The position numbers and the translations under genes were made by a program. The notes under the pieces are model-generated. The model had not been told where the DNA came from. It was given only the letters and a program-made list of their open reading frames with translations, and did no database searches. Below are positions 20,244-36,941 of a DNA stretch of 64,000 bases, one piece after another; positions within the stretch are counted from its first letter, which is position 1, and every line of letters begins with the position of its first letter. The stretch is from an uncultured Desulfobacterium sp. (GTDB taxonomy: Bacteria > Desulfobacterota > DSM-4660 > Desulfatiglandales > Desulfatiglandaceae), in assembly GCA_900258555.1 (NCBI GenBank), contig LT984854.1, forward strand, positions 608,195 through 672,194. The letters run 5' to 3'.

Positions 20244-20522
20244 ATGGCCGCTGAAGAACGCTGGGTTGGCGTCGACGATGTGGCAGCCCACCTTGGGGTG
20301 GCCAAGGACTCGGTTTATAGATGGATCGATGAACGGGGGCTCCCTGCTCACCGTGTGGGACGGCTCTTTCGTTTCAAGCTATCCGAAATAGACGAGTGGG
20401 TGCGCCAAGACAACGAGCGAGAGAAGACTCCAAATTCCGTCCAAAGCCGACCCTCCTCGAAAACCCAGACGAATCGATCAACACCAAAGACACGTTCACG
20501 GAAGAGGGGCGGGAATGAGTAG
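20244..20522 (+). CDS. Excisionase-family helix-turn-helix DNA-binding protein
   Basis: 92 residues. The MerR/excisionase-type winged helix (HTH_17) covers about 6-58: WVGVDDVAAHLGVAKDSVYRWIDERG and then RVGRLFRFKLSEIDEWV. The basic Ser/Thr/Arg-rich tail is probably disordered. I chose ATG 20244, preceded by GAGAGGA, over the upstream GTG 20214. Its end overlaps the helicase start at 20515, so it leads the defence operon and probably autoregulates it through the adjacent dyad. Such HTH genes often precede DUF1156/DUF499 loci. Confidence 0.82.
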   Translation: MAAEERWVGVDDVAAHLGVAKDSVYRWIDERGLPAHRVGRLFRFKLSEIDEWVRQDNEREKTPNSVQSRPSSKTQTNRSTPKTRSRKRGGNE

Positions 20523-23500
20523 CAGTCTGCTCACATCTCAGATCGGGCAGCGGATATTTCTCCCCGGGCACTTCGATGTGCCCGTGGTCCTGGAAGATGC
20601 GCGACCGCTCGGTTCTGATGATTCGGCAGGCTATGAGTGTCGCGTTCGTCTTCCCGACGGTTCATTGGAAGAGGCCGTCATCTCTGCGGAAGAGGTCGTG
20701 GCTGTCCTTGGAAAGGGGCCTGACGAAGTCAAAGCAGAGACTCCTGTGGACGCCGAGAAGCTTCGACTCCTGATCGAGTCGGCTCGAGTGCGTCTGGCTT
20801 ACGCGCATGACCAACAGTTCGCCGTGAGCCTTTCGGGCATCCGCACCCTGCCGCATCAGATTGAAGCGGTGTACCAAGCGATGCTTCCGCAGCCCAGGTT
20901 GCGGTTTCTGCTGGCGGATGATCCTGGAGCCGGCAAGACGATCATGGCCGGGCTCCTGGTAAAGGAGCTGAAGCTGCGTGAGGCGATTGATCGCATTCTC
21001 ATCCTATGCCCCGCACCGCTCACCATACAGTGGCAGGACGAGATGCTCCGCTGGTTCGGCGAGCCTTTCGACATCATCTTTTCCGCCGTCGACCAACAGC
21101 AATTGACCAATCCATGGCAGAGGTCTTCACAGATTATCGCTTCCATTGACTACGCCAAGCAGGAAGACGTGCGCGAGCGTGTCTGGCAACAGCGGTGGGA
21201 CCTCGTCATCATCGACGAGGCCCACAAGTGTTCGGCCAGGACAGCCTCAGGCGGACAGAATCGAGAATCCAAGGTTGCGACAACGAAACGTTATGACCTC
21301 GCGTCGCGTCTCACATCCCAGGCGGACCATGTCCTCCTCCTGACAGCCACACCCCACCATGGGGATGAAGACAAGTTCGCTCATTTCCTTCGGCTCATTG
21401 ATCCGGACCTTTTCCCGGAACCACACCGCCTCGGGAAACAGGCCACCGCAATCCGCAAAGACGTTTTCCGCCTCGGTAAGGATTCGCCGTGGTCTCTCCG
21501 GAGGCTGAAAGAAGATCTTAAGGACGCGAATGGGAAACGGCTCTTCCCGGACCGGCATACCAACACCGTCACTTTCTGCCTGAACAACGACGAGTACACC
21601 CTTTACAAGAGCGTTACCGCTTACATCAACGAGTTTATCCCGCAGCAGACCGGGCAAAGACGTTCATCGGCGGCCCTGACCCGAACGGTCCTGCAACGGA
21701 GATTGGTGAGCTCCACGTGCGCCATACATGAGTCGATAAAGCGGCGGTTGAAAAAGCAGGAAGATCTCCTGGAAGAGCTTGAGGGGCTCACTCCGGCCCA
21801 GCGCGCCAAACGGCTGGCGGCTTTGCAGGGTCGCCTGCCTGATGCCGAGCAGGACGAAGATGATCTCGACGATGCGGTACGTGATCAATTGGTCGATGAG
21901 TACACTGCCGCGCTGGAACTTGAACAGTTGCGCGCAGAAATCTCCGCCCTTAAGGAGCTCGTCGAGCAGGCGCGAAAGGTTCGGGAAAACGCGAACGATT
22001 CCAAACTGGCCGCATTGAAGAAATGCCTCGGTGAGGCGCAGTTTATGGACCTGAAGGATGGCCGGGGAAAGCTCCTGATTTTCACGGAGCACCGGGATAC
22101 CCTCGGCTACGTGCGCGATCATCTTAAACGATGGGGTTTCAGCACCTGCGAAATCCACGGCGGCATGAACCCCCATGAACGCAAACGAGCTCAGGAGGTT
22201 TTCAGAACCGGTGCGCAGGTATGTATCGCAACGGAGGCCGCCGGCGAAGGCATCAATCTCCAGTTCTGCCACCTGATGATCAACTACGACATGCCCTGGA
22301 ACCCGACCCGGCTGGAGCAGCGCTTGGGCCGCATCCACCGTATCGGTCAGGAGCGAGATTGCTACGCCTTCAACTTCGTTGCAACGGATTCCGAGGACGG
22401 CCAGCCTATCGTTGAAGGCCGGATTCTCCACCGCCTTCTGGAAAAGCTGGACCAGATGAACGAGGCCCTCGAAGGCCGCGTGTTCGATGTAATCGGCGAG
22501 GTGCTGTCGCTGAACGACGTAAACCTCCCGGACATGCTTCGTGACGCGGCCTATGACCCCAGGCGGCTCGATGAGTATCTCGATCAGATTGACCGCATCA
22601 ATCCGGCCAAGCTCAAAGAATACGAGGAAGCCACGGGCATTGCCCTCGCGCGCAGCCACGTGGATTTTTCAGCATTCCAGCGCCGGAACCTCGAGGTCGA
22701 AGAGCGTCGGCTCATGCCTCGATATGTGGAGGCGCAGTTCGTCGCCGCTGCTCGGGAAGTGGGCCTTCGGATCGAGCCGAGAGCCGACGGGTTGTGGCGC
22801 GTCGAGCACGTCCTTGCGGATCTTCGCTCTGAACGTCTCCGCTCCGTCCAGAAGGTCGGGAAAGCCGAATCGTCCTACCGAAAGATTACCTTCCACAAAC
22901 ACCACCTTGAACAGGACGCTCACGTTGACGCTGTACTGATGGGGCCGGGACATCCGCTCTATGCGGCGGTGGACGAGAAACTCAACGAGCGGCTGGCGGG
23001 GATGATCGCCGGTGTCGGTTTCTTCGTCGATCCTCTGTGCAGAGAACCCTACCGTATCCACCTTTTTGAGATATCGATCCGTGGCAAGGACTCGAAAGGA
23101 AACGACGTGCCGCTCTATGGCGAGCTCGTGGCCGTTCGAGAGGAGCGCGGGCATTACGAAGTCATCCCGAGCGACATCCTGCTTAACCTGGCGGCACATC
23201 CGCATCCGCCGCAGAAGATCGAACCGACTCCCACGCAGGCGGCTACCGATTTTCTGAAGCGGACCTACCAGCTCGAGTGCCGCGCCCGTTGTCAGAGTGA
23301 ACGGCAGCATTTCGCGCATGTTTGCCGGGAATACCTGGAAAAGTCGTTCAAGGCCCGGATCGACCGCGCCCAGGAGCGGGCAATGCTGCTTGCCGCGGAG
23401 GTCTTCTCGAAACCGGAATACAAGCTGCCTGCGGACGAGGCCAGGAAATATGTAGATGAGCTTCAGCGCGCACGCCGGGAACGTCTCGACGGTCTGAAAA

Positions 23501-24039
23501 GGCTGGAAATTGCCAGAACTGGACCGGTCAAGCATGTGGGGACGGCCTTTGTCCTTGCTCCCGATGCCGACACCCAGGCCCAGCTCGCCGATCTGGCCGA
23601 CGAACTCGATCCGAATATCCGCCGGCAGAGCGAAATCGCTGCTGAGGACAAGGTTATTGAAGCGCTGGTCGCGGAGGGCTTCCCCCAGGACCGGATCGAG
23701 CGGGTCGGCCATCTGAAGTTGGGGTTCGACATCCGCGCTCACAAGATCGCCGATGAAGCCACCGGCGAGGTCTTCGTCAAGAGAGTCGAGGTCAAAGGAC
23801 GACTGCGGGGGCAGCCGGTGAGGCTGACCACCAATGAATGGTACAAGGCACAACAATTGGCCGAGACATACTGGTTGTACGTGGTTTGGAACCCTTTGGG
23901 AGATTCCCCTGAGCTTGTGAGTATCCATAATCCTGTTGCCAAACTCGATCACGCCAAGAGAGAGATCGTGGCGGCGAGGTTCTATGAAATTTCGGCGGAG
24001 GCGATTCTCGCTGCCAATGAACAAAGATACAAGAAATGA
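20515..24039 (+). CDS. SNF2-family helicase with C-terminal DUF3883
   Basis: 1174 residues. RecA1 of the SNF2/superfamily 2 motor contains DDPGAGKT (Walker A variant, about 135-142) and DEAH (about 234-237); RecA2 contains the LIFTEHRDT and RIHRIGQ motifs (about 520 and 606). A charged coiled coil near 410-495 is inserted between the lobes. About residues 1040-1160 form a DUF3883 nuclease-like fold (VEVKGR, LTTNEWYKAQQL, YWLYVVWNP). It resembles DrmD-type helicases of DISARM and those of DUF1156/DUF499 loci. The motor probably translocates on or remodels unmodified invading DNA. The start overlaps the HTH gene. Confidence 0.87.
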   Translation: MSSSLLTSQIGQRIFLPGHFDVPVVLEDARPLGSDDSAGYECRVRLPDGSLEEAVISAEEVVAVLGKGPDEVKAETPVDAEKLRLLIESARVRLAYAHDQQFAVSLSGIRTLPHQIEAVYQAMLPQPRLRFLLADDPGAGKTIMAGLLVKELKLREAIDRILILCPAPLTIQWQDEMLRWFGEPFDIIFSAVDQQQLTNPWQRSSQIIASIDYAKQEDVRERVWQQRWDLVIIDEAHKCSARTASGGQNRESKVATTKRYDLASRLTSQADHVLLLTATPHHGDEDKFAHFLRLIDPDLFPEPHRLGKQATAIRKDVFRLGKDSPWSLRRLKEDLKDANGKRLFPDRHTNTVTFCLNNDEYTLYKSVTAYINEFIPQQTGQRRSSAALTRTVLQRRLVSSTCAIHESIKRRLKKQEDLLEELEGLTPAQRAKRLAALQGRLPDAEQDEDDLDDAVRDQLVDEYTAALELEQLRAEISALKELVEQARKVRENANDSKLAALKKCLGEAQFMDLKDGRGKLLIFTEHRDTLGYVRDHLKRWGFSTCEIHGGMNPHERKRAQEVFRTGAQVCIATEAAGEGINLQFCHLMINYDMPWNPTRLEQRLGRIHRIGQERDCYAFNFVATDSEDGQPIVEGRILHRLLEKLDQMNEALEGRVFDVIGEVLSLNDVNLPDMLRDAAYDPRRLDEYLDQIDRINPAKLKEYEEATGIALARSHVDFSAFQRRNLEVEERRLMPRYVEAQFVAAAREVGLRIEPRADGLWRVEHVLADLRSERLRSVQKVGKAESSYRKITFHKHHLEQDAHVDAVLMGPGHPLYAAVDEKLNERLAGMIAGVGFFVDPLCREPYRIHLFEISIRGKDSKGNDVPLYGELVAVREERGHYEVIPSDILLNLAAHPHPPQKIEPTPTQAATDFLKRTYQLECRARCQSERQHFAHVCREYLEKSFKARIDRAQERAMLLAAEVFSKPEYKLPADEARKYVDELQRARRERLDGLKRLEIARTGPVKHVGTAFVLAPDADTQAQLADLADELDPNIRRQSEIAAEDKVIEALVAEGFPQDRIERVGHLKLGFDIRAHKIADEATGEVFVKRVEVKGRLRGQPVRLTTNEWYKAQQLAETYWLYVVWNPLGDSPELVSIHNPVAKLDHAKREIVAARFYEISAEAILAANEQRYKK

Positions 24040-24048
24040 GGTAGATAT

Positions 24049-24822
24049 ATGGCCAAAGAGCTGAAACATAAACCGCTGGTTGAAGCAATTTTGGAAATCA
24101 GGTGGAAGTTGCAAGGATCGCCTCCCGGACCACAGGTTGATCCTCATTACAAGCTGCTGTTGGGGCGTTTGTTTGATCGAATGCTCAAGGACTATCCCGA
24201 ACACGAGCAATTACCGACTGCCAACGTCCCTGACGAGTTGGTAGGCCATGTCGTTCAGCACCGTTTTCGTGTTGCAGCTAATTTATGGCCTCTGGTTCAG
24301 ATCGGCCCGGGTATTTTCACAGTCAATTCAACCGCCGATTACACATGGCCTGACTTTCGGCCCCGTGCCTTGACAGCCATTGAGAAACTGTTCGACGCAC
24401 ATCCGAAGGTGGGGGAACTGAAAATAACTAACTTGATTTTGCGATATATCGATGCAGTGGATTTCGACTTCGGGGTTAGCAACATATTCGAATTTTTAAG
24501 TGACAAATTAAAGTTGAACGTATCGCTGCCGGACACCCTCTTCACGGATACCGGAGTCGAAAACAAACCAAACAGCTTTACATGGCAGTGTTCCTTCAAA
24601 TGTCAGAATCCAAAAGGTTTGATCAATATTCGATTTGCGACGGGTCAAAAGAGCAATGTTCCCGCGGTGGTTTGGGAAACTACGGTCGAATCAGCAGGTG
24701 AGGACGTACCCGAGATGCCGAAAGCCTTCGATGGCTGGCTCGATGCCGCCCACGACATTACGGATGACTGGTTTTTTAAAATGATCGAAGGCGAACTTGA
24801 AAGGAGGTTCTCAGGTGAATAG
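24049..24822 (+). CDS. TIGR04255 family protein
   Basis: 257 residues. The opening HKPLVEAILEIRW and later YIDAVDF segments are typical of the sporadically distributed TIGR04255 family found in defence islands and mobile regions. It is an alpha/beta protein with no catalytic motif that I recognise. The ATG lies ten bases after the helicase stop with GAGG upstream. Its end overlaps the next gene, whose ribosome site (AAAGGAGG) sits inside it. The AT-richer composition compared with the helicase suggests the operon was assembled from parts. Confidence 0.72.
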   Translation: MAKELKHKPLVEAILEIRWKLQGSPPGPQVDPHYKLLLGRLFDRMLKDYPEHEQLPTANVPDELVGHVVQHRFRVAANLWPLVQIGPGIFTVNSTADYTWPDFRPRALTAIEKLFDAHPKVGELKITNLILRYIDAVDFDFGVSNIFEFLSDKLKLNVSLPDTLFTDTGVENKPNSFTWQCSFKCQNPKGLINIRFATGQKSNVPAVVWETTVESAGEDVPEMPKAFDGWLDAAHDITDDWFFKMIEGELERRFSGE

Positions 24823-25192
24823 CACATATACAGTTGACCATTTGTACAAAAGTCAAATTCCTGATGCTCCTTCAACCGGTTTCTGGCATGAGAGCCATGC
24901 TGAACAGCCTGCGAAATTCCTTGATCTGCCGCATATCGCCAAAGTGGTAGGGTTAGCATTTTCGCTAGCAGTCTCGCCGGTCACAGCAATAACCGACCCA
25001 TGGCTTGTCGAGAGGCGGCGACGTGATGCTGTGGTAACAATGTCGATCTACCAAGAAGTATTAGGCCGTTTTATATCGCGAGCCGAAGCGTTGCGGATTG
25101 CCAGGAAGATTCTTGAGCAGGCTGAGCGAGAACGGCTCATTTTCGCTGAATATGAGGCCGCTCGAGGTGTACAGTGGGAGAATCATCCATGA
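24815..25192 (+). CDS. Defence-operon protein, unknown
   Basis: 125 residues from GTG 24815, which sits seven bases after AAAGGAGG; the TTG at 24797 in the same frame would include that site. The N-terminal half is hydrophobic (VVGLAFSLAVSPVTAITDPWL), perhaps one membrane or buried helix. The C-terminal half is charged helix (EALRIARKILEQAERERLIF). No family recognised. The stop overlaps the following ATG by four bases, and the previous gene overlaps it by eight, so it is produced together with the neighbouring proteins. Confidence 0.6.
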   Translation: MNSTYTVDHLYKSQIPDAPSTGFWHESHAEQPAKFLDLPHIAKVVGLAFSLAVSPVTAITDPWLVERRRRDAVVTMSIYQEVLGRFISRAEALRIARKILEQAERERLIFAEYEAARGVQWENHP

Positions 25193-25845
25193 TTTATGAA
25201 TTTCCCGACACATCCATGCGTATTCGTCAGGGAGACATATTTGTAGGTCTCCCCAGAGTCGATATGTCACTCAACAACGTACTGATTGTCAGTGAAGCCG
25301 GCGAACGTGTTGCAAAGTGGGCGGAGATAGCCGCTAAGGGCGACCCGGTCAATATCATCGTTCCCGTCCGGCCTGTTGCTGCAATAGTAGCCACGCAGGA
25401 TTGCGATGCAGTCCGAAGCCGGGATATCACTCTTTGTGAGATCAGAAGCTTCAGAGACGTGGAACGAAAAAGCAAAGACACGACCTCGGCAAAGAGTTGG
25501 AAGAATTTGATTACCCAACATGCGCGCATCAATCAGAAATGGTTTTATCTTCCCTCGGACGATAGGGTGGGGTTTTTGGAAAAAATGGCTGTTGATTTCA
25601 TGGTGACCCTGCGTGTGCCAAGGACCGAACTCGAGGAACTGCGAGATCTTCGAAAAGGGCGGCTTAACCGGCTCGCAGACGAACATTTTCGCGAGCGGAT
25701 CGGAGAATTTTTCAGACGTTACCCATACGACGAATGGTATCCGCTCGATCAGGATGAGTTGAAGGCATACCTGACTGAATACCCTGATACCAAACCGTTT
25801 CCTTGGCAAGAGGCTGGGGTCGTGGATGGTGGAGTCAAGAAATGA
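25189..25845 (+). CDS. GD/CD-motif defence protein, homologous to the RR output domain at 34796
   Basis: 218 residues from ATG 25189, which overlaps the previous stop; GTG 25174 is less likely. Ordered motifs: IRQGDIF (G15-D16), VATQDCDA (C72-D73), MAVDF (about 133) and RLADEHFRERI (about 161-171). The same four motifs, in the same order and with similar spacing after CD, form the C-terminal half of the response regulator encoded at 34796. I know of this pattern in uncharacterised defence-island proteins but cannot name an activity; the conserved Cys-Asp could be catalytic. It overlaps a 31-codon ORF downstream. Confidence 0.68.
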   Translation: MIYEFPDTSMRIRQGDIFVGLPRVDMSLNNVLIVSEAGERVAKWAEIAAKGDPVNIIVPVRPVAAIVATQDCDAVRSRDITLCEIRSFRDVERKSKDTTSAKSWKNLITQHARINQKWFYLPSDDRVGFLEKMAVDFMVTLRVPRTELEELRDLRKGRLNRLADEHFRERIGEFFRRYPYDEWYPLDQDELKAYLTEYPDTKPFPWQEAGVVDGGVKK

Positions 25846-25937
25846 CCCCTTCACTGTATATTGAGTTTCTTTCTGACCGTGGCTTCGGTCGGGACAGCGG
25901 TCTTGAACGAACACTCCGCCAAAGGAGGGACCTATGA
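25842..25937 (+). CDS. 31-residue coupling ORF
   Basis: ATG 25842 overlaps the stop of the preceding gene (ATGA), and its own TGA overlaps the ATG of the next gene at 25934. GGAG lies eight bases upstream. The peptide is Arg-rich (11 charged residues) and matches nothing I know. The strong AAAGGAGG site of the next gene is inside it. It bridges the only gap in the operon and may serve translational coupling, or be a remnant. Confidence 0.4.
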   Translation: MTPSLYIEFLSDRGFGRDSGLERTLRQRRDL

Positions 25938-26242
25938 GCTTTGAGCGACATGGCTACAACTTCGAAGGGGCCTTCACTTCAGCAAATCAGCTCGAAGCAA
26001 GGGCCGGGGTGTATGTGATCTGGTGTAAGAACGGCGAGACATGGACGTGCCTGGATGTAGGCGAGTCGCACAATGTGCAGGATCGTCTGCTCAATCACGA
26101 CCGTGCCGACCAGTGGCGGCAGAAATGCCGAGGCACGATCTACTATGCGGCGCATTACACGCCGAACCTCCAGCAGACCGGACGAATCCAGATTGAAAGC
26201 AGGCTCCGTCAGCTTGAAAGACCTCTTTGTGGAGAACGCTGA
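25934..26242 (+). CDS. GIY-YIG-like nuclease-fold protein
   Basis: 102 residues. AGVYVIW (about 24-30) and LDVGES (about 41-46) occupy the GIY and YIG strand positions. VQDRLLNHDR (about 49-58) carries the conserved Arg and His region, and RIQIESRLR (about 85-93) carries the expected Glu. The tyrosines are replaced (GVY kept, second motif DVG), so activity is uncertain. Length suits a minimal domain with no DNA-binding extension. AAAGGAGG precedes the ATG. It ends one base before the probable start of the methyltransferase gene. Confidence 0.62.
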   Translation: MSFERHGYNFEGAFTSANQLEARAGVYVIWCKNGETWTCLDVGESHNVQDRLLNHDRADQWRQKCRGTIYYAAHYTPNLQQTGRIQIESRLRQLERPLCGER

Positions 26243-26243
26243 A

Positions 26244-29135
26244 TTGAACGACCGTAGATTGATAGAGGACTTCCTGCCCGTAAATTCGGTCGGAGAGGCG
26301 GCTTCGAGTGAGCCCCGCACAAAAGGGCACATCTCTACCTTGCATGTGTGGCGTGCGAGAAGGCCCCTGGTGGCGTGCCGGGCCGCGGTATACGGGGCTT
26401 TAGTGCCGGCGTCGCGGTTCATTCCGGAAAACGGTCCGGACAACAAGAAACAGAGCCTGGGCAGGGCCAATGCGGCCAAATTCTTTGAGCGGCTCTGCAA
26501 GTATCCGGGCAATCCCACTGTAATCAAAGACGCGCAGAGGCACATTCTGGAAGCCCATGCCGAGCGTTTGACCAAAGAGACGGGCAAGAGTGTTACGGTC
26601 GAGGATATCGAGGTAGGAGAAGCGCCGCGTCCTAAGGTGCTGGATATGTTCGCTGGCGGCGGGGCCATTCCGATTGAAGCGGCAAGGATGGGCTGTGATT
26701 CACATGCCCTTGACCTCAATCCAGTCGCGTATCTTATCGAGCTTTGCACCGTTACCTTCCCGCAGCAATTCGGGGCGAAACTGGCCGATGATATCGAGTT
26801 GTGGGGGAAGAACATTCTCAAGCGGACGCAAGATGCCGTGTCCGACGTTCTTGCACGCATACCGGTTGCACGAAAGCAACAGAGGGCGATCCAAAGAACC
26901 CTTGGGGATGAAAATGAAACGCCAGCCGACGAGTATTCTGTCGTCGCCTACTACTGGACGCGGACCATCCCATGTCCGAATCCGCAGTGCAAAGGAACCG
27001 TACCGCTCTATCGACAGACTTGGTTGAGGAACAAATCCTCCGGTTACGTGGCCTTGAAGCCGGTACCGGACATGGGCAGACGCTTCATGCGTTTTCAGGT
27101 GGTCGATGCTCGGTCCGCATCGGCGCTCGGCTTTGATCCGTCCTCCGGGAGCGCGGGATCATCCACGGCATGCCCCTTCTGTCAAACCGCTCTCGATGGT
27201 CCCTATGTCCGCAGGTATGGCGATGAGAGAGGCTTCGGCCAGCAGCTCATGTGCGTGATCGCGCTCAATCCCGACGGCCCTGGCAAGTTGTATCTTGTCG
27301 ATGAATCGCTTGCGGCCATAGAGGCCGAGCATCAGGCCATGTCCGAACACCGTGCGGCGGAGATTGAGCGCGAGCTTGGACCGAGCAGCCTTGATGAGGA
27401 GATTCCCCCGACCGGTAACGCCGGGCTTGCCACAGGGAACAGCTATCTATATGGCATCCGGACGTTCCGCCAGGCTTTTACCCCACGCCAGCGGTACATC
27501 CTCCTGACCATGGCCCGTGAGGTGCATCGTGCATACCAAGAGATGACTAAACAGGGAATAGAGCCGGAACGGGCCCACGCTATCGCGACGTATCTTGGCG
27601 TCTGGGTCAGCCGTTTGACTGATCGATGCAATGGGTTGGCCAGATGGAATAACGTCGGTGAGAAGATTGAAAGTCTTACTTCAATGAAACGGTTCGCGAT
27701 GACATGGGATTTCCCTGAAGTCAATATTTTTGGAGGTGGCTCAGGCGATGCTCTCAGCCAACTCGCTTTCATGACTTCCGCCGTGCGCCGCGAAGGCCAG
27801 TTTAATAACCCGTCAGTAGTTGTGCGCGGTTCCGCCGCTGAACTGCCATATGACAACGGTATCTTCGATGCGGTGATTACCGATCCCCCTTACTACGACA
27901 ACGAAAGCTACTCAGAGCTTTCCGATGTCTGTTACGTCTGGCTGCGGCCGACCATCGGCTTTCTCTACCCTGAACATTTCGCTGGCCAACTGACGCCGAA
28001 GAAAAAGGAATGCGTCGCCGCAGCTTATCGCCAGGGGGGAAAGCAGCAGGCGCGGAACTATTACGAAGACACCCTGTTTCAGTCGTTGCGAGAAGCCCAT
28101 CGCGTCACGAAACCTGGCGGCATCCTGATCGTCGTGTATGCCCATAAGACCACTCTCGGTTGGGCGACCCTTGTGGATGCGCTTCGACGCGCCGGTTATG
28201 AAGTCGCCGAGGCCTGGCCTCTTACCACGGAAACAAAGGCCCGGGTGGCTCACCAAGGAGACGCGGCTCTTGCCTCAAGTATTTTTCTCGTAGCCCGGCG
28301 GCGCGAAGCTCCTGAGACAGGCTCGTATGAGGAGCGAGTCCGTCAAGACCTGGAGAAGATCGTCCGCGAGCGCGTGGATTCGCTCTGGAAAATGGGCATC
28401 ACCGGCGCGGACCTGGTTATTGCCGCCGTTGGCGCTGGGTTGCGCGCCTTCACCCGCTTTTCCCGAGTTGAGTACGCCAATGGCGAGGAGGTCCCGGCCG
28501 AGAAGTTTTTGGCCGAGGTGGAAGGAGTCGTGCTGGAGACGCTCCTGGAAAAGATTTTCGGTGTGACCGGAAGTGGCGTCGCAGCGGTGGACGGACCGAG
28601 CCGGTTCTACGTGCTCTGGCGCTACGCATACAAGGTGGCCGAGTTGGAAGCGGGCGAGGCCATCGTTTTTACCTACGGCCAGAATGTGGAGCTGGATGGC
28701 CAGAACGGCCTTTCGTCCGGAAGCCGCGCCCTGGCCGAAAAGAAGAAGGGCAAGTACCGACTGTTTGACTTTTCCGAACGGGGGGACGACGAGAAATTGG
28801 GCATGCCCAAGGATGACGACAAGCCCGCCCCGCTGATCGATATCCTGCACCGTATCCTCTGGCTTGTGGAAAACGAACCCCGTAAGCTTAATGACTTCCT
28901 CGACGAGGCAAGGCCGGACCGGGAGCGCCTGCGCTTGGTGGCTCAAGCCCTGGCCGGGACCGCGCTGGTCGGCAGGAAGGACGACGGGCCGGAACACACC
29001 GTGGCGACAACACCTGCAGAAGCCGCCGCGCTCAACAAACTCGTCGCCAACTGGCGGGCCCTTATCGACCAGCGGTTGGCCGCCAGAGAAGGGACCTTGT
29101 TTGAACTTATGCGAAATTCGGAGGCCAAAAAGTGA
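26244..29135 (+). CDS. DUF1156 DNA methyltransferase of a defence system
   Basis: About 963 residues. DUF1156 covers the N-terminus (NDRRLIEDFLPVNSVGE, KGHISTLHVWRARRPL). SAM motif I is DMFAGGGAIPIEA (about 134) and the amino-methyltransferase catalytic motif is DPPYYDN (about 547), predicting N6-adenine or N4-cytosine modification. Cys pairs near 244 and 311 (CPNPQC, CPFC) form a zinc ribbon. The frame is open upstream, but TTG 26244 fits best: GGAG is nine bases before it, it follows the previous stop, and it gives the family N-terminus. It should mark self DNA for this locus. It overlaps the DUF499 gene. Confidence 0.85.
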   Translation: MNDRRLIEDFLPVNSVGEAASSEPRTKGHISTLHVWRARRPLVACRAAVYGALVPASRFIPENGPDNKKQSLGRANAAKFFERLCKYPGNPTVIKDAQRHILEAHAERLTKETGKSVTVEDIEVGEAPRPKVLDMFAGGGAIPIEAARMGCDSHALDLNPVAYLIELCTVTFPQQFGAKLADDIELWGKNILKRTQDAVSDVLARIPVARKQQRAIQRTLGDENETPADEYSVVAYYWTRTIPCPNPQCKGTVPLYRQTWLRNKSSGYVALKPVPDMGRRFMRFQVVDARSASALGFDPSSGSAGSSTACPFCQTALDGPYVRRYGDERGFGQQLMCVIALNPDGPGKLYLVDESLAAIEAEHQAMSEHRAAEIERELGPSSLDEEIPPTGNAGLATGNSYLYGIRTFRQAFTPRQRYILLTMAREVHRAYQEMTKQGIEPERAHAIATYLGVWVSRLTDRCNGLARWNNVGEKIESLTSMKRFAMTWDFPEVNIFGGGSGDALSQLAFMTSAVRREGQFNNPSVVVRGSAAELPYDNGIFDAVITDPPYYDNESYSELSDVCYVWLRPTIGFLYPEHFAGQLTPKKKECVAAAYRQGGKQQARNYYEDTLFQSLREAHRVTKPGGILIVVYAHKTTLGWATLVDALRRAGYEVAEAWPLTTETKARVAHQGDAALASSIFLVARRREAPETGSYEERVRQDLEKIVRERVDSLWKMGITGADLVIAAVGAGLRAFTRFSRVEYANGEEVPAEKFLAEVEGVVLETLLEKIFGVTGSGVAAVDGPSRFYVLWRYAYKVAELEAGEAIVFTYGQNVELDGQNGLSSGSRALAEKKKGKYRLFDFSERGDDEKLGMPKDDDKPAPLIDILHRILWLVENEPRKLNDFLDEARPDRERLRLVAQALAGTALVGRKDDGPEHTVATTPAEAAALNKLVANWRALIDQRLAAREGTLFELMRNSEAKK

Positions 29136-32044
29136 ACACACATGCACTTCGTCCCTGGACCGACCTGGTCAAGCTCCATCCCGACGTGGAAGCGGGTGCG
29201 TTGACCGAGGCGGTGTTCGCCATCGATCTCGGAGCCATCGCCGCAGGTGACCCAAACGTTCCCGTGGTCAACCGGGACCCGGAAGCCTTTTTTCGGGCGA
29301 CATACCTCACAGCCGATCTGCGAAAGCTACTGGAGGAAGTGCTGGCATCCCTTTCCGGCAAGTCCGGTTACAACCGGGTTTTGAAACTCAGGGTGCCCTT
29401 CGGCGGGGGGAAGTCACACACCCTGGCGTCGCTGTTTCATGCAGCGCGAAGGCGAGAGGCCCTGGACGGCATCCCGGAGGCTAAAGAATTCGCCCGACCC
29501 GGCAAGGTGGCCGTAGCGGTTTTCGACGGTGAGAAGTTCGATGCGCGTAACGGGAAGACGCTGGATGACGGCCCCACGATTCAGACCATGTGGGGGTGGA
29601 TCGCCTGGCAGATTGACTCCGAAAAGGCTTTCCCCATTGTGGCTGATCATGACAAGGACCGCGTTGCCCCGGGCGGGGATGTGATCCGCGAGCTGCTCAT
29701 CAAGGGGGCTGGCGGCAGGCCGGTTCTCATCCTCCTCGATGAAGTGCTCAAATACATGGAGCGCTCCGCTGCGGTCAGTGTCCTTGATTCCACCCTCCAG
29801 CGCCAGGCCAAGGATTTCTTCCAGAACCTGACCGTCGAGGTGGCCGGGAGCGAGAAGGCCGCGCTCGTCTATTCCCTCACCTGGAGCGCGAGGGAGGCCC
29901 TGGGGAATGTTGGTCTACTTGCCGAGATCGACAAGCTCGCATCTCGTGTGGACCAACTCAGGGAACCTGTCTCAGGAGACGAGATACTGCCCATCTTGCA
30001 GCGGCGTCTTCTGGGGGGCGCCCCCGACGCTTCCACAGCCACCGAGGTGTCCACGGCATATCAAGATGTAGTGACCGGCATGCAGCGGGCTCATGCCGAA
30101 ACCCCCTCCGAGCGCCAGCAAGCCGAGGAGGAAGGCCGTCTGCTGCGGGATCGGATGCGGGCGGCGTATCCATTCCATCCCGCGCTCATCGACATCATGA
30201 GGGAACGTTGGACAGCGGTGGATGCTTTTCAGCGGACCCGCGGCGCGCTGCGTTTTCTTGCCTCCTGCATGCATTCCCTCAAGAAGAACGGCGGAGCAAA
30301 GGCACTTCTTGGGCCTGGAGACGTGCCGGTGAAGGACGTGGATGTCCGGGTGAAGATGCTTAAAGAGCTGGGTGTCCAGAACGACTACGACCCGGTCATC
30401 ACGGCGGACATCGACGGTCCGAACGCCCGGGCAAAACGTATCGACGACCGGATGTCGCGTGAAACCCCTGCGCTTGCAAGTGTGAAGCCCGCCACACGCA
30501 TCGCCACGGCCATCCTTCTGTATTCGTTTGGCGGATTGAGGCGTGAGGGCTCGGGCAGCGACGAGACACTGCCGCCCGGCGTTACGGAAAACGAACTGCT
30601 TGCGGCCTGCGTCGGTCCCGACCTGGACAACATCACGGCCACCGCCGTCTTGTCCGAGCTTCGTAATACATGCCTGTACCTGCATTACGACGGTGTCCGG
30701 TACTGCTTCAAGAAGGACCCGAATGTCACCAAGTTGATCGAGGACGCGGAGCAGACCGTTGCCCGGGAGGATTCCCAGGCGCGGGGACACGGCCCGGTCC
30801 GCAGCATGATCAAGGAGATGCTGGATGCCCGCCTGGCCGGACACCACACAGCCATCGTGTGGCCGGCGAAGAGCCAAGACATTCCCGATGAGGACCCACG
30901 CTTCCTCGTCGCCTACCTGCCCCTTGAGTTCGCCGCCGAGGGCAAGGCGGAACAGGAACGCCAGGCCAAGGAGTACCTGACCAAATACGGGGATCGTCCC
31001 CGGCGCTTCCGCAACGGCCTGGGCCTCGCAATACCCGAGAAGAAACAGATTGAGGCCCTGCGGCGCGCTGTCCGATACCTGCTGGCCATCGACCGCGTGG
31101 AAGCCAAGAAGCAGCAACTTCGACTCACCAAGGACCAGCTTGATCAACTCCGGGAGAGGAAACGCACCGAACAGGCTGCCGCTGAGTCATGCTTCCGGGA
31201 ACTTTACACGGCCGCATGGTTGCCTCGGGTCCAGGACGGCGAGTTGGAAATAGAGAAAGTGGAAAGGGGCGGTCGACCGCTTCAGGCGACCGGCGTCCAC
31301 GAACGGATCATGGAACTTCTCACCAGCGTGGGAACGCCGCGCATTCACGGATCGGTTACGCCGCGGAAAATCGCCGAGCGAGTGCGGCTCGGCGAATCCT
31401 TAGTCGAGGGGGAGCCGCTGCTCATGGGCATCAAGGCGTCCGATGTGCTTGAATCGTTCTTCAGAGATATTGCGCCGCCCCGGTTGGAATCCGCATCTGT
31501 CCTGCGCAAGGGGATCGCTCGCGGTGTATCGGAAAGCGTCTTCGCCTATGCGAGTGGAGGCAGCCCTGTTCTTGGTCTTGATGGAAGATACCAGGTAAAT
31601 CGCGACAAGGTGATTCTCGGCCGCTCCATTGCCGATGACGAAGTCGATTTCGATTCCGGCTTCCTCATAATGCCGGCAGCGATCCCGGAAGCCCCGGCGG
31701 CCCAACCCGCAGGCGCTTTCCCCGTCGATACAGGCGCAGTTCCTCCCCCGAGCGTCCAAGAGGCCCCGGCCGGAATCGGATCGGGAACCGGTACCGGACC
31801 AATTACGGCGGGTACGGAGGTTTCCGGTCGAAGGAAACGGGTCGCCATGACATTTGAAGCCACTAGGGAACAGGTCTTCAAGGCGTTTCCGGCCATCGCG
31901 AACCTGGCCGACAAGTCCGACGGAGCCAAGGTGCGAATCCGCATCGAGGGGTCATCGGCTGCAGGCTTCGATTCATCCTGGCTGCGCAATGCCGTGGACG
32001 AACCGCTTGACGAGGCAGATATCGAACGGACCACCGAGGAATGA
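29132..32044 (+). CDS. DUF499 AAA-like ATPase of a defence system
   Basis: 970 residues. Walker A is PFGGGKSHT (about 89-97) and Walker B LILLDEVLKYM (about 199-209). The arrangement matches DUF499 proteins, which pair with DUF1156 methyltransferases in anti-phage loci and resemble BREX P-loop proteins in general layout. The C-terminal about 100 residues after a Pro/Ala/Gly linker (about 850-895) are a small separate domain (RKRVAMTFEATREQVFKAF). The GTG start overlaps the methyltransferase stop (GTGA). It probably supplies ATP-driven assembly or sensing for the complex. Confidence 0.85.
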   Translation: MNTHALRPWTDLVKLHPDVEAGALTEAVFAIDLGAIAAGDPNVPVVNRDPEAFFRATYLTADLRKLLEEVLASLSGKSGYNRVLKLRVPFGGGKSHTLASLFHAARRREALDGIPEAKEFARPGKVAVAVFDGEKFDARNGKTLDDGPTIQTMWGWIAWQIDSEKAFPIVADHDKDRVAPGGDVIRELLIKGAGGRPVLILLDEVLKYMERSAAVSVLDSTLQRQAKDFFQNLTVEVAGSEKAALVYSLTWSAREALGNVGLLAEIDKLASRVDQLREPVSGDEILPILQRRLLGGAPDASTATEVSTAYQDVVTGMQRAHAETPSERQQAEEEGRLLRDRMRAAYPFHPALIDIMRERWTAVDAFQRTRGALRFLASCMHSLKKNGGAKALLGPGDVPVKDVDVRVKMLKELGVQNDYDPVITADIDGPNARAKRIDDRMSRETPALASVKPATRIATAILLYSFGGLRREGSGSDETLPPGVTENELLAACVGPDLDNITATAVLSELRNTCLYLHYDGVRYCFKKDPNVTKLIEDAEQTVAREDSQARGHGPVRSMIKEMLDARLAGHHTAIVWPAKSQDIPDEDPRFLVAYLPLEFAAEGKAEQERQAKEYLTKYGDRPRRFRNGLGLAIPEKKQIEALRRAVRYLLAIDRVEAKKQQLRLTKDQLDQLRERKRTEQAAAESCFRELYTAAWLPRVQDGELEIEKVERGGRPLQATGVHERIMELLTSVGTPRIHGSVTPRKIAERVRLGESLVEGEPLLMGIKASDVLESFFRDIAPPRLESASVLRKGIARGVSESVFAYASGGSPVLGLDGRYQVNRDKVILGRSIADDEVDFDSGFLIMPAAIPEAPAAQPAGAFPVDTGAVPPPSVQEAPAGIGSGTGTGPITAGTEVSGRRKRVAMTFEATREQVFKAFPAIANLADKSDGAKVRIRIEGSSAAGFDSSWLRNAVDEPLDEADIERTTEE

Positions 32045-32122
32045 TGTGGGAAGCTGAACGGACGACAGTAACGCACATGCTTCGGTAAATATCATTAGGA
32101 AGGCATCTGATAGGCGTGATTG

Positions 32123-32638
32123 ATGGACACAGTGAGTAAAGAGACAAGAAGCCGAATGATGTCTTCCGTTCGGGCAAGGAATACGAAACTCGAAATGGAG
32201 GTGAGACGGCGGCTCTTTGCTATGGGTTTCCGATATCGTTTGCATGAAAAAAGCCTTCCCGGAAAACCGGATATGGTCTTTCCGAAATACAGTGCCGTTC
32301 TTTTCGTGCATGGGTGCTTCTGGCACCATCACGGGTGCCATCTTTCCGGATTACCGGCAACCCGCCGAGTTTGGTGGAAAGAAAAACTTGAGGGAAACAG
32401 AAAGCGGGATTCGAATGTCGTCTCCGAATTAACTAACCTCGGTTGGAGAGTCATCATCATATGGGAGTGCAGTTTTCGGAAAGCGAAAACGGATCGTGCG
32501 GAGGCCTTGGATCGAATTGCCGAATACGCGCGTGCTTTTTTAACATCTGACCGAAAATTGTTGGAGATCCCGCAATCGTCTCCTGACCGGATGGGCGATA
32601 CACCGGAAAAAGGCAAGGCACATGGCAAGAACAAGTAA
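32123..32638 (+). CDS. vsr: Very-short-patch-repair-type endonuclease (Vsr family)
   Basis: 171 residues. RSRMMSSVRARNTKLE opens the Vsr fold, PGKPDMVFP holds the catalytic Asp (about 51), FVHGCFWHHHGC (about 61-72) holds the zinc and catalytic His residues, and WWKEKLEGNRKRD is the conserved helix. Classical Vsr nicks T:G mismatches made by deamination at Dcm sites; a dcm-like gene lies 3.3 kb downstream on the same transcript. In defence loci Vsr-fold proteins may instead be the restricting nuclease. ATG 32123 is preferred to TTG 32120. The last 17 bases overlap the kinase gene. Confidence 0.88.
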   Translation: MDTVSKETRSRMMSSVRARNTKLEMEVRRRLFAMGFRYRLHEKSLPGKPDMVFPKYSAVLFVHGCFWHHHGCHLSGLPATRRVWWKEKLEGNRKRDSNVVSELTNLGWRVIIIWECSFRKAKTDRAEALDRIAEYARAFLTSDRKLLEIPQSSPDRMGDTPEKGKAHGKNK

Positions 32639-34778
32639 TGAAAAGAGCGGGTTCGACCGGATACCATTCCGGATGCATCCAAGGGTGTTTGCGGCCCTGG
32701 GTGCGGACCTTGTAACCAATGACGTGGTTGCAGTTATCGAGTTGGTCAAAAATTCCTACGATGCTTTTGCTCGCAACGTCTGGTTACGATTCCGTGACGA
32801 TCCGTCCAGGGGCGCTTTTTTGGAAATAGAAGACGACGGGAACGGCATGACCCGAGATATCATCGAGCAGGTTTGGTGTCTCGTTGCAACTCCGTTCAAA
32901 GAGCATAACCCGCTAACAAAAAGCGGCCAGAAGGTGCGTCGCGTTGCCGGTGAAAAGGGTCTCGGCCGCCTTTCCGTTGCACGTTTAGGCGAGCGCCTTG
33001 ACATGCTCACCCAGGCTCCCGGTGCTCCGTGCTGGGAAGTCAATGTCAATTGGTCCGATATTTCTGCGGGGGATGACCTGTCAGGGAGTTATGCGGAGTG
33101 TCGATCATGCCCGGAAGTTACGCCATTCGAAAAGTCCGGCACACTCCTTCGCATTCTTGGTCTGAAAGGACAGTGGGACAATGATCGGATATCCGATCTT
33201 GAAGATAACCTCGCCCGCTTGATTTCACCGTTTTCAGACCTTGGTGATTTCAATATTTTCCTGTCCGGTTTCGGAGATAGCGAAATCGAGGAGGTGAAGA
33301 TAGAGTCTCCCGAATTTCTGGCCAAGCCGAAATACTCCGTCAGCGGTGGTGCCGATGGAAACGGCAATGTAAGAGGAACATATCGATTTGCTCCCATTTC
33401 GGGGGGGAGGGTCAGGGAGAAGGAACTGAAAATCGCATGGGAACAAATATATGATGTCATTCAGGATCGAACAAGATTCCGGTTTTCCGATGACAGAGCG
33501 AGTTGCGGTCCATTTACCTTCGAAATCCGGGCGTGGGACATAGCTGCCGACGACACGCAGGAAATTGCCGAACGGTTCGATTTTCAGAAGAGCCAGGTGA
33601 GAAAGGCAATCCGCGCACATAAAGGCATATCGGTTTACCGAAACGGTGTGCTGGTGTTGCCGAAGTCGGATAATGCCCGCGATTGGCTGGGCCTTGATTT
33701 GAGGCGTGTAAGTAAAGTAGGAACAAGGTTGAGCACAAGCCAGGTTGTCGGCTACGTTTCAATAACTGCCGAAGACAACCCTCGGATAGAAGACACGAGT
33801 GACCGAGAACGTCTGGCATCATGTATCGAAGTGGCTGAGTTCGAGGAAATTCTTAAGGCCGTGGTGGCGCTTCTTGAAAACGAACGTGACGAAGACCGAA
33901 TCAAACCGGATCGCGAACGACCGATGGACGATCTTTTCGCGGCATTGTCAGCCGAAGACCTTGTTGCGGAAGTTATTGCGCTTTCGGATGAGGGTGCAGA
34001 TGCATCCGAAGCGATCCCGTTGCTCCGTGCGTTCAGCAGTTCTCTGGATGCAGCACGCAAGACGATTCAGGAGCGCTTTATTTATTATAGCCGTTTGGCA
34101 ACAGTGGGGACCATTGCCCAGATGTTGGTTCATGAAATCCGCAACAGAACAACGGCATTCGGCAGCTTCCTGGATTTCATCAAAAACCGGTTCGGTCCGT
34201 TCAAAGACAAAGATATCGAGGAAGAATTTCGCTGTACGGATAACGCAGTGAACGCCCTGGAGCGTCTCGCCGACACTTTTGCTCCTCTTGCGAGTCGCGG
34301 TTTCAGACGCCGTAAGCGGCAATCAATCTTGGAGGATCAAATCAGGGATTGCCTTGCGCTGCATCGTGGTGAGATCGAGAAGAAATACGTTCGGTGCAAC
34401 GTACCGGATTCCATAACCGCGGTAGCTGTTGATCCCGGTGAACTTGATGCCATCATCCTGAATTTGGTTACGAATGCCGTCTACTGGATGGGGGATGTCC
34501 CCAAAGAGAATAGAGAATTGGAATTCCGCCTCATCCCGATAAATAACGGAGAACGCGTGCGCGTATGGATTCACGATACGGGACCCGGTCTGAATGAAGA
34601 GGACGTGGAGAAAGTCTTCTGGCCCGGTGTGACCAGGAAACCCGGCGGAATCGGGATGGGCCTTACCGTGGCTTCGGAATTGGTGGCTGCATACGGGGGT
34701 CGAATGTCAACGAAACACCCCGGCACGAAAGGCGGAGCATCATTTGCATTCGATTTGCCGCTGCGTAAACAGGGCTGA
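32622..34778 (+). CDS. Cytosolic kinase: MORC/Hsp90-like GHKL-S5 module fused to a histidine kinase
   Basis: 718 residues without membrane segments. The N-terminal GHKL ATPase has ELVKNSYDA (N44), DDGNGM (71-76) and GEKGLGRLSVARLG (110-123). An S5-like region follows (GISVYRNGVLVLP near 335; DWLGLDLRRVSKVGTRLS). The second half is a histidine kinase: VHEIRN with H504, NLVTNAV near 613, DTGPGL near 652 and GGIGMGLTVASEL near 677. Two complete ATP sites in one chain are unusual. GHKL-S5 proteins of the MORC type are known beside Dcm and Vsr in restriction loci. The cognate regulator is encoded 17 bases downstream. The signal is probably DNA or another ligand felt by the first module. Confidence 0.82.
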   Translation: MARTSNEKSGFDRIPFRMHPRVFAALGADLVTNDVVAVIELVKNSYDAFARNVWLRFRDDPSRGAFLEIEDDGNGMTRDIIEQVWCLVATPFKEHNPLTKSGQKVRRVAGEKGLGRLSVARLGERLDMLTQAPGAPCWEVNVNWSDISAGDDLSGSYAECRSCPEVTPFEKSGTLLRILGLKGQWDNDRISDLEDNLARLISPFSDLGDFNIFLSGFGDSEIEEVKIESPEFLAKPKYSVSGGADGNGNVRGTYRFAPISGGRVREKELKIAWEQIYDVIQDRTRFRFSDDRASCGPFTFEIRAWDIAADDTQEIAERFDFQKSQVRKAIRAHKGISVYRNGVLVLPKSDNARDWLGLDLRRVSKVGTRLSTSQVVGYVSITAEDNPRIEDTSDRERLASCIEVAEFEEILKAVVALLENERDEDRIKPDRERPMDDLFAALSAEDLVAEVIALSDEGADASEAIPLLRAFSSSLDAARKTIQERFIYYSRLATVGTIAQMLVHEIRNRTTAFGSFLDFIKNRFGPFKDKDIEEEFRCTDNAVNALERLADTFAPLASRGFRRRKRQSILEDQIRDCLALHRGEIEKKYVRCNVPDSITAVAVDPGELDAIILNLVTNAVYWMGDVPKENRELEFRLIPINNGERVRVWIHDTGPGLNEEDVEKVFWPGVTRKPGGIGMGLTVASELVAAYGGRMSTKHPGTKGGASFAFDLPLRKQG

Positions 34779-34795
34779 AAGCCGGAGGCAATCAC

Positions 34796-35926
34796 ATGCT
34801 GAAACTATTATTCATCGAAGACGAGCCGAGTGCCGTCGAACCCGTTGTGAATTTACTCAAGCGGGAGCAGACGGACATTCAGTGCGAGGTGACGCTCTTT
34901 GCCGATGCGGAGAGCAGGGTAGTGACCCTCCGTCCCGACATTGTTATACTCGATCTCCTGGTCGGCGGTGCCACCCCAGAGCCTGAATCTGCAGGGCTGG
35001 GTACTCGCGATTTCATTTGGAATCAACATTTCTGTCCGCTTGTTATTTATTCGGCTAGACCGGATATTCACGATGAAAAATATGAGCCGCATCCATTCGT
35101 GAAGAGTATTCAGAAAGGAAAAGATAGCCCCCGGAAAGTAATGGACGCACTCGGCGAACTGCGTCCGCAGGTCGAGGCATTGACAGAAGCAGAAGAGCAT
35201 GTCAGGCAGTCCTTTTCCTGTGCCATGAGGGACGTCGCGCCTTATGCTTTTGAAGCTTTTACGGATGCTGCACAGAGAACGGAGACAATAAAGCGGTCGG
35301 GAAGACGCCGCCTTGCGGCTTTAATGGATGGGCTTTCACGGGACGCAACAATGCTCGCCAGTTGGGAGCAGTATCTTTGCCCTCCGGTTTCCTCCGACAT
35401 CAAACTTGGCGATGTTCTGAGAAAGGCGGACGGGAAGTGGGACGACCCGTCTTCATTCCGCGTAGCTCTTACCCCCTCCTGTGACCTTGTAGCCTCGAAC
35501 GGGCGCGTACCGAAAGTGGACAGGGTTCTCGCCGCAAAGTGCTGCTCGATGAGGGTCGGGCTGGACCTTACAAGCCTGAAAGGCATGGGGCTTACGAAAC
35601 TGAAGGACCGACTGCCCGGTACCATGCTCTCACACGGATATTTCGAGGCTACAATCCCTTTCCCGTGCCTTAAGGGGAGAATTCCGACTATGGCTGCCGA
35701 TCTGCGTGATTTGGAGTTCATCTCTGTCGGTGACATAGGTGTGGAGAACAGACCGTTCCTGCGAGTTGCTTCTATTGACAGCCCTTTTCGAGAGATGGTC
35801 GCATGGGCATATCTGCACACCGCTTGTCGGCCAGGGTTACCGGATCGGGATTTTAATTCGTGGCGTGACGAGATTATGAGCACTCTTGGAAATAATGTGG
35901 CGACGAACAGACATGAAAGCTGTTGA
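34796..35926 (+). CDS. Response regulator with GD/CD output domain
   Basis: 376 residues. The receiver (about 1-125) shows FIEDEP, the phosphoacceptor VILDLL (D53), YSARP and a Lys near 105; a helix links it to an output domain from about 190. That domain has KLGDVL (G205-D206), TPSCDL (C229-D230), MAADL (299) and RVASIDSPFRE (323-333), matching the stand-alone protein at 25189. There is no HTH, GGDEF or nuclease signature. Gene order says the kinase at 32622 phosphorylates it. The output is probably enzymatic or toxic and not transcriptional; this is inference. It overlaps the Dcm gene. Confidence 0.75.
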   Translation: MLKLLFIEDEPSAVEPVVNLLKREQTDIQCEVTLFADAESRVVTLRPDIVILDLLVGGATPEPESAGLGTRDFIWNQHFCPLVIYSARPDIHDEKYEPHPFVKSIQKGKDSPRKVMDALGELRPQVEALTEAEEHVRQSFSCAMRDVAPYAFEAFTDAAQRTETIKRSGRRRLAALMDGLSRDATMLASWEQYLCPPVSSDIKLGDVLRKADGKWDDPSSFRVALTPSCDLVASNGRVPKVDRVLAAKCCSMRVGLDLTSLKGMGLTKLKDRLPGTMLSHGYFEATIPFPCLKGRIPTMAADLRDLEFISVGDIGVENRPFLRVASIDSPFREMVAWAYLHTACRPGLPDRDFNSWRDEIMSTLGNNVATNRHESC

Positions 35927-36941
35927 TTTTTTTTGTGGGGCAGGAGGCCTTACCCGCGGCTTGCTCGATGCAGGTATAAAAGTCATTACCGGTTTTGACC
36001 GCGACGAACGGTGCCGCCACACTTACGAGCATAACAATCCCGGGGTTCGGTTCATTGCGGCTGATATCAGAGAAATGGGCTTGAAGGACCTTTTGGCCAA
36101 GAGCAGACTGCGAAAATATGATGACGTACTGTTTGCCGGATGTGCTCCTTGCCAACCATTCAGTTCACAGAGAAAGGGAAACGGAGATAGACAAGATACG
36201 ACATTGCTATGCGAATTCGGTCGAATAGTGGAGGATGCCTTGCCTGGATATGTTTTGGTTGAAAATGTTCCGGGAATTGCAAAAGTGCGCGGATTCAGTA
36301 CTTTCAGACGCTTCCTTCAGATGTTGGAAACGAAAGGCTATTCATACGTTTATGACATTCTCGATGCAAAACGTTTTGGCGTACCACAGAACAGACGCCG
36401 TCTTGTTTTGCTGGCAAGCAGACACTTTCGCCCATCTTTGCCTCAACCCAAATATGGAGACTCTTTTCGGCCATTCATGACAGTACGGCAAGCCATTTCT
36501 CATTTTCCGGAAATTCGTGCAGGAGAATGTCACAAGGACATTCCCAACCATGTGGCAGCATCCATTGAAGCGTTGAACCTTGAACGCCTCCGCCATACGC
36601 CGCATGATGGTGGTGACCGAAGATCATGGCCAATTCATTTGAGACTTGAATGTCACAAAGGGAATTATGAAGGTCATACGGATGTGTATGGCCGAATGGC
36701 CTGGGACCGTCCCGCTCCCGCGCTTACAGGCAGATGCCATAGTATTTCAAATGGCAGATATGGTCATCCCGAGCAGGATAGGGCTATTTCCTTGCGCGAA
36801 GCGGCAGCGATTCAATCATTTCCGGATGGTTATGTTTTCTTCGGGTCCAAGAAACACGTTGCGATGCAGATCGGTAACGCTGTACCGGTTCGACTTGCAG
36901 AGCATATCGGAAAACATATTATCGATCTTCGGAGTAGTTGA
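35913..36941 (+). CDS. dcm: C5-cytosine DNA methyltransferase (Dcm-type)
   Basis: 342 residues with the ordered C5 motifs: FFCGAGGLTRGL (I), GCAPCQPFSSQRKG with catalytic Cys (IV), VLVENVPG (VI), QNRRRLVLLAS (VIII), a target-recognition stretch around 215-275, and GNAVPVRLAEHIG (X). ATG 35913 gives the standard N-terminus; ATG 35895 is an alternative and neither has a strong ribosome site, so coupling to the overlapping regulator gene is likely. It should methylate self DNA at a site the Vsr-like protein or the kinase module recognises. Composition is clearly AT-richer than the genes before 24 kb. Confidence 0.88.
   Translation: MKAVDFFCGAGGLTRGLLDAGIKVITGFDRDERCRHTYEHNNPGVRFIAADIREMGLKDLLAKSRLRKYDDVLFAGCAPCQPFSSQRKGNGDRQDTTLLCEFGRIVEDALPGYVLVENVPGIAKVRGFSTFRRFLQMLETKGYSYVYDILDAKRFGVPQNRRRLVLLASRHFRPSLPQPKYGDSFRPFMTVRQAISHFPEIRAGECHKDIPNHVAASIEALNLERLRHTPHDGGDRRSWPIHLRLECHKGNYEGHTDVYGRMAWDRPAPALTGRCHSISNGRYGHPEQDRAISLREAAAIQSFPDGYVFFGSKKHVAMQIGNAVPVRLAEHIGKHIIDLRSS

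Follow-up and report, generated by a model that had tools for sequence, protein, structure and literature searches.

Does one domain act both as a stand-alone protein and as the output of a response regulator (RR), and what would such a domain do under a phosphorelay? The question arises from the 64,000-nt stretch of DNA analysed here (the window), in which an earlier note had pointed out two proteins, encoded at 25189 and 34796, that carry four short motifs in the same order. Coordinates without a locus label are positions in the window, and labels of the form Lnnn denote related loci. Translation of the window recovered both open reading frames (25189-25845 and 34796-35926) as first described. 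The motifs were also where the earlier note had placed them: GDI at residue 15, CD at 72, MAVD at 133 and RLAdehFRE at 161-169 in the 25189 protein, and GDV at 205, CD at 229, MAAD at 299 and RVAsidspFRE at 323-333 in the RR (Table 1). An in-frame GTG at 25174 offers a possible alternative start for the 25189 protein.

When each sequence was shuffled 200,000 times, the four motifs never appeared in order, a result that is indicative only, because the motif pattern was chosen post hoc. Direct BLASTP of the 25189 protein against the RR gave no match. Therefore, the claim rested on four short motifs, and the two proteins alone would have been insufficient to show homology.

Table 1. Features of the window that are discussed in the text.
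Feature	Position	Strand	Remarks
HmaA-type helicase	20515..24039	+	surrounding island
TIGR04255 family protein	24049..24822	+	first cassette gene; E 5e-43
Small ORF, 131 aa	24797..25192	+	between the TIGR04255 and CD genes, overlaps both
Stand-alone CD-domain protein, 218 aa	25189..25845	+
Cys72 of the 25189 protein	25402-25404	+
HmaB-type N6-adenine methylase (DUF1156 type)	26073..29135	+	true start uncertain
HmaC / DUF499 ATPase	29132..32044	+
Vsr mismatch endonuclease	32120..32638	+	family search
Soluble kinase, 718 aa	32622..34778	+	N-terminal paraMORC-type GHKL ATPase, then histidine-kinase core; His504
RR, 376 aa	34796..35926	+	receiver ~1-125, helical linker, C-terminal CD domain
Receiver phospho-acceptor D53	34952-34954	+
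Linker of the RR			helical; RRR170-172 invariant
CD output domain, RR residues 188-366	35357..35893	+	CcdB/MazF-like barrel (predicted)
Invariant Cys229 of the RR CD domain	35480-35482	+
C-5 cytosine DNA methylase	35886..36941	+	called from upstream TTG

Relatives and consensus of the domain

We call the domain the CD domain. Same-phylum whole-genome searches yielded RR relatives, and a mixed profile added RRs and stand-alone proteins. Scanning genome contigs contributed another twelve RRs, all from metagenome-assembled genomes, the titles of which name Rhodothermales, Acidobacteria, Dadabacteria, Thermodesulfovibrionia, Planctomycetota, Phycisphaerae, Victivallales and Anaerolineae. The plasmid search found RRs from Campylobacter, Enterobacter, Hymenobacter and Fusobacterium, and two viral contigs yielded stand-alone copies. 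Nothing useful came from searching viral contigs with the RR, the 25189 protein, P0002, A6 and A8, from phage records, from E. coli genomes searched with the Enterobacter kinase-RR pair, or from plasmids searched with the L071 RR.

The consensus opens with roughly GD[IVL], a spacer, [VI]-[LV]-[TS]-[PQ]-x-C-D and a hydrophobic strand, continues through a variable helical stretch, F/Y-x-L/F-P and a [DN]-[LF]-[RK] strand, and closes with an R-x-x-x-[LI]-x-x-x-F-[RK] helix followed by R-x-G-x-P-[DE]. The Cys of the CD motif was invariant (23 of 23 RRs and all stand-alone proteins aligned); its neighbouring Asp was His or Gln in two of the 23 RRs. The four motifs carried over to the family in part: the family as a whole retains GD, the Cys of the CD motif and the Phe of FRE, but MA-x-D and R-[LV]-A have equivalent positions in the alignment without strict conservation. 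The GD and FRE residues, though family-wide, were not invariant across RRs. The earlier statement that no named output domain with these features was known was borne out, as the CD domain was without a match in Pfam, NCBIfam, PADLOC and PHROGs, and the CD profile gave only chance matches to PDB sequences.

The stand-alone and RR forms are one domain family

The stand-alone relatives were first gathered with the mixed profile. Because this collection risked circularity, the RR and stand-alone profiles were separated for the later tests. When the profile of 23 RR C-termini was compared by hhalign with the profile of six stand-alone proteins, from which the 25189 protein was excluded, the probability was 98.6% and the score was 106, compared with 9-15 for the column-reversed and shuffled decoys inspected. 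In a search set of about 1,000 ORFs and reversed decoys, the RR-only profile recovered members of the stand-alone family, with E-values from 1e-11 to 2e-5, as well as the 25189 protein, with E=0.015 (best reversed decoy, 2.6). The 25189 protein matched the stand-alone profile built without it at E=9.2e-6 (hhalign probability, 95.5).

The short motifs could have become common to both copies by coincidence or convergence instead of marking one domain. The missing BLASTP match would fit such an origin, as would the weak match of the window RR alone to the stand-alone profile (E 0.3-0.4). However, the score of the separated profiles stands far above the decoys, and the RR-only profile recovers stand-alone relatives down to 1e-11; on these two tests we rejected coincidental motif sharing, which we regard as highly improbable. 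By these profiles, one domain family unites the 25189 protein with the C-terminal half of the RR. The domain is therefore found both by itself and in the output position of an RR.

Predicted fold

An AlphaFold2 model of the domain by itself covered RR residues 188-366, was built from 16 aligned sequences, three of them stand-alone copies, and had a mean pLDDT of 83.4 and a pTM of 0.78. Among the 50 PDB matches listed by Foldseek, all were CcdB, MazF/PemK or CptN toxins, with a best probability of 0.99, a target-normalised TM mostly of 0.58-0.69 and E-values of 0.006-0.08. The best match was 3tcj (CcdB; E 0.0057, probability 0.99), and matches to MazF/PemK reached probabilities of up to 0.99 at E 0.008 or worse. 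The model predicts that the CD domain folds like the toxins of the CcdB/MazF superfamily. In a model of the full-length RR, the receiver was good and the C-terminus was fair; the receiver dominated the Foldseek matches, which were uninformative for the output domain.

The predicted elements of the CD domain would correspond one to one with those of MazF structures, namely the GD strand, a second strand ending in TPSCD, the LAA strand, the helical insertion, the FP strand, the ADLRDLEFI strand, the RVASI strand and the FRE helix; GD opens the first strand, which is also its place in MazF. In our own alignment to the MazF structure, R222, at the start of the second strand, would occupy the position of the MazF catalytic Arg. 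Among the RRs this position is R, C, L or F, and since it varies, canonical MazF RNase activity is unlikely. The replacement of the Asp by His or Gln in two RRs likewise weakens the reading of Cys and Asp as an enzymatic dyad.

No sequence link to PemK or CcdB was found. Pfam PemK had no match for the CD domain, PemK reached hhalign probabilities of 0.2-0.6 against the CD profile, no better than unrelated families, and CcdB, represented by only three sequences, reached 0.0-0.2. With no profile similarity and the catalytic Arg not conserved, we call the domain CcdB/MazF-like in predicted fold, not MazF. Unlike MazF/PemK and CcdB, whose fold it is predicted to share, the CD domain is larger and has a helical insertion and an invariant Cys. 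No MazE/CcdA-like antitoxin gene was recognised with it.

Kinase and phosphorelay residues

The kinase contains two GHKL ATPase domains, of which the C-terminal one is the histidine-kinase core. Its phospho-acceptor H504 was present in 24 of 24 relatives, the N, G1 and G2 box residues were conserved, and both GHKL domains keep their nucleotide-binding motifs. In the receiver, D53 was found in all 23 RRs. The acidic pair was also complete (E/D8 in 23/23; D9 in 22/23, with E in one), and position 107 was Lys in 19 and Arg in 4 of the 23. The intact D53, H504 and GHKL motifs make phosphorylation control of the CD domain plausible.

The N-terminal GHKL domain of the kinase is related to the N-terminus of the BbrUII/HgiDII-type restriction enzymes (NF050001; E 9e-19). 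These are, in contrast, single-protein restriction enzymes. Derivation of the CD domain from them was considered and rejected, as the enzymes examined lack it.

Genomic context

Wherever the contig extends far enough, the gene immediately upstream of the RR encodes the kinase. Counting the window, 20 of 25 loci have a C5 methylase (Dcm) in the neighbourhood; the other five are DISARM, contig-edge or kinase-RR only loci. Vsr is present in most chromosomal kinase-RR loci, and the kinase-RR pair with a 5mC methylase, usually with Vsr, occurs in many phyla. L043 holds the pair on an Enterobacter plasmid without a methylase. No restriction nuclease besides Vsr was recognised in the window module, and in most Dcm/Vsr loci, the neighbourhoods of which are only partly annotated, no other conserved restriction nuclease gene was recognised.

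Two loci extend this picture. In L012 (G129:C13, 1585-17942), which holds a complete class-1 DISARM set (drmD-drmMI-drmC-drmB-drmA), the kinase-RR pair is embedded between drmMI and drmC; the pair is nevertheless not a core component of DISARM, and the window locus is without DISARM. In L071 (G131:C26, 3717-10787), Dcm, kinase, a Response_reg_2 RR, an HNH_2 nuclease and Vsr form one run. The L071 RR scores over the PF19192 cut-off and its C-terminus is a CD domain, which places the domain in at least some of the Response_reg_2 family. Because L071 already encodes an HNH_2 nuclease, restriction at this locus does not have to depend on the RR.

Compact RRs bearing the CD domain were seen in about 40 records of conjugative Campylobacter plasmids (L045, L047 and others). 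In the two examined (L045 and L047), the RR gene comes after a kinase gene and points towards a convergently oriented C5 methylase gene.

The stand-alone copy had been assigned to a DUF1156/DUF499 operon. It does lie inside such an island, which holds all three Hma genes (helicase, N6-methylase and DUF499 ATPase), but it is the third gene of an operon of its own, TIGR04255/small ORF/CD (24049-25845), and not part of the Hma core. Hma, or DUF499-centred, systems have been termed BREX-related (PMC12839542). The small ORF of the window had no family match. The TIGR04255-first order recurs in L040, L067, L068 and L072; on the viral contigs L067 and L068, the cassette follows an endolysin-like gene, and on a Methylocystis plasmid it lies beside an abortive-infection gene. 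The stand-alone cassettes on the plasmid and viral contigs are without a restriction-modification (R-M) core or methylase. As the cassette is found elsewhere without Hma, it is independent of Hma.

In L038 (2299-2928), L039 (7994-8626) and L062 (6353-7048), an unnamed protein of ~210-230 aa precedes the small ORF, which makes these loci a second cassette type with a different first gene. Kinship of these first genes with TIGR04255 was not supported (hhalign probability 0.2; no TIGR04255 match).

Discussion

The linkage of kinase, RR, methylase and Vsr was published in 2021 as Response_reg_2/HEF_HK by Bellieny-Rabelo et al. (PMC8011034), in a paper that covers only the receiver and DHp domains and in which a text search for 'output domain' found none. 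In the open-access papers searched we found none describing an output domain for Response_reg_2/HEF_HK systems. The window system resembles Response_reg_2 (PF19192) and HEF_HK (PF19191) in placing a soluble paraMORC-type GHKL kinase, with an N-terminal HATPase_c_3 and a C-terminal HATPase_c, beside an RR-like protein and near a C5 methylase and Vsr. It differs in a receiver closer to ordinary Response_reg, and neither PF19192 nor PF19191 matched the window RR or kinase, or five RRs, at E<=1.

The earlier note had compared the logic of the system with that of Detocs, a two-component phage defence. The likeness presumably lies in a kinase and an RR whose output would be a phosphorylation-switched effector. 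In contrast to the phosphorylase-type effector domain of Detocs, the CD output is predicted to be CcdB/MazF-like, and the window system is linked to a DNA methylase and Vsr; the Detocs models in PADLOC had no match. The predicted toxin fold would thus fit an effector unlike that of Detocs.

Building on the common domain family, the intact phosphorelay residues and the conserved gene linkage, all of which are observed, we propose that the genes at 32120-36941 work together as a defence module in which signalling is linked to methylation and the CD domain is the phosphorelay-switched effector, a reading to which we assign a probability of roughly 45%. In such a module, Dcm would mark self DNA and Vsr would repair 5mC deamination. 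The paraMORC-type N-terminal domain of the soluble kinase probably senses foreign or abnormal DNA, upon which the kinase would autophosphorylate on H504 and pass the phosphate to D53 of the RR. Phosphorylation of D53 may free or activate the C-terminal CD domain, an effector that would act on nucleic acid, a topoisomerase or another host target, and that, once activated, would harm the cell or the invader or engage a target. The CD effector would supply the arm otherwise given by a separate restriction enzyme. The 25189 protein would be this effector or target-binding domain under a different form of control, within its TIGR04255/small-protein/CD cassette.

This effector reading is supported by the homology of the two copies, the toxin-like predicted fold, the intact phosphorelay residues, the BbrUII-related GHKL N-terminus of the kinase, the kinase-RR-Dcm linkage, the pair within DISARM, the CD domain of the L071 RR, and the stand-alone copies on viral contigs and a plasmid. 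Occurrence as an RR output and as a separate protein in a small operon of bacteria, a plasmid and viral contigs suggests phosphorylation-triggered antiviral effectors. The reading is weakened by the modest Foldseek E-values, the lack of a profile link, the variable R222 and a Cys as the only invariant residue, as well as by the HNH_2 nuclease of L071 and the methylase-free pair of L043. We are doubtful of the stricter version, an R-M-like system in which the phosphorelay is the restriction arm: the kinase would read the state of the DNA or of its methylation and phosphorylate a toxin-fold RR.

Because the domain lacks the catalytic residues of the known toxins and has a single Cys as its only invariant residue, the main rival gives it a non-toxic role as a regulator or adaptor, which we hold to be a real, if tentative, possibility. 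Through its toxin-like barrel, the phosphorylated RR would bind DNA or a partner and tune the expression or activity of neighbouring R-M or defence genes, with the methylase, Vsr, nuclease, DISARM or Hma as partners. Most RRs are transcription regulators. The MazF catalytic residues are absent from the CD domain, and its company with several unrelated defence machines (Dcm/Vsr, DISARM and Hma) is adaptor-like. A separate HNH_2 nuclease is present at L071, the one Response_reg_2 locus examined, and signalling control of R-M systems was proposed by Bellieny-Rabelo et al. (PMC8011034). However, the RRs showed neither a helix-turn-helix nor any other named DNA-binding output, the stand-alone operons on the plasmid and viral contigs have no R-M core, and most of the partly annotated Dcm/Vsr loci have no other recognised conserved restriction nuclease. 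Alternatively, the CD domain could act enzymatically on nucleic acid, as a nuclease or otherwise, from a new active site around the invariant Cys; the phosphorelay would then govern a restriction enzyme that is classical in other respects and cleaves unmethylated DNA. The tight association with a C5 methylase and Vsr, the invariant Cys with mostly conserved neighbouring Asp, GD and FRE residues, and the resemblance of the kinase N-terminus to restriction enzymes are consistent with such an enzyme. We consider it quite unlikely, since the domain has no nuclease motif or nuclease-fold match, its Asp, GD and FRE residues vary among RRs, and some stand-alone copies are not accompanied by a methylase.

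Two-component genes in R-M operons, Hma, DISARM, MazF-fold toxins and the TIGR04255 name were already known. As far as we found, the RR output domain with its predicted CcdB/MazF-like fold, its kinship with stand-alone proteins of TIGR04255 cassettes, and the kinase-RR pair embedded in DISARM are new. We know of no earlier response regulator with a CcdB/MazF-fold output; this would be the first. A restriction-linked two-component family known since 2021 only by its receiver and kinase domains gains an output domain, and thereby a testable function. A separate TIGR04255/CD cassette, present in bacteria, on a plasmid and on viral contigs, is also tied to this family, as are DISARM and BREX-related islands. 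Both the phosphorelay in R-M operons and the TIGR04255 family would become directly testable. If the stricter version, with the phosphorelay as restriction arm, is true, self/non-self discrimination would be sent to a toxin as a phosphoryl signal, instead of leading to direct DNA cleavage.

Additional observations

A tiny ORF lies between the TIGR04255 and CD genes in L040 (7698-7949) and L072 (5784-5996), and likewise in L067 and L068. The C-terminus of the tiny ORF is conserved and GKPxRxxIxGxI-like in L040, L072, L067 and L068; its product is possibly an antitoxin or linker. Between the CD cassette and HmaB of the window, a GIY-YIG-like ORF (25934-26242; 102 aa, weak Pfam match) overlaps the called HmaB start. 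On the minus strand at 37582-38091, the window encodes a 169-aa protein with CXXC pairs and, by eye, an XRE-like helix-turn-helix, which gives it an MqsA-like look. In L063 (7015-10103), a CD-domain protein of 288 aa with a long insertion lies directly upstream of a 740-aa protein that has only weak similarity to helicases. L064 (7449-7673) carries an isolated 74-aa fragment of the CD-domain C-terminus, perhaps the remnant of an RR.
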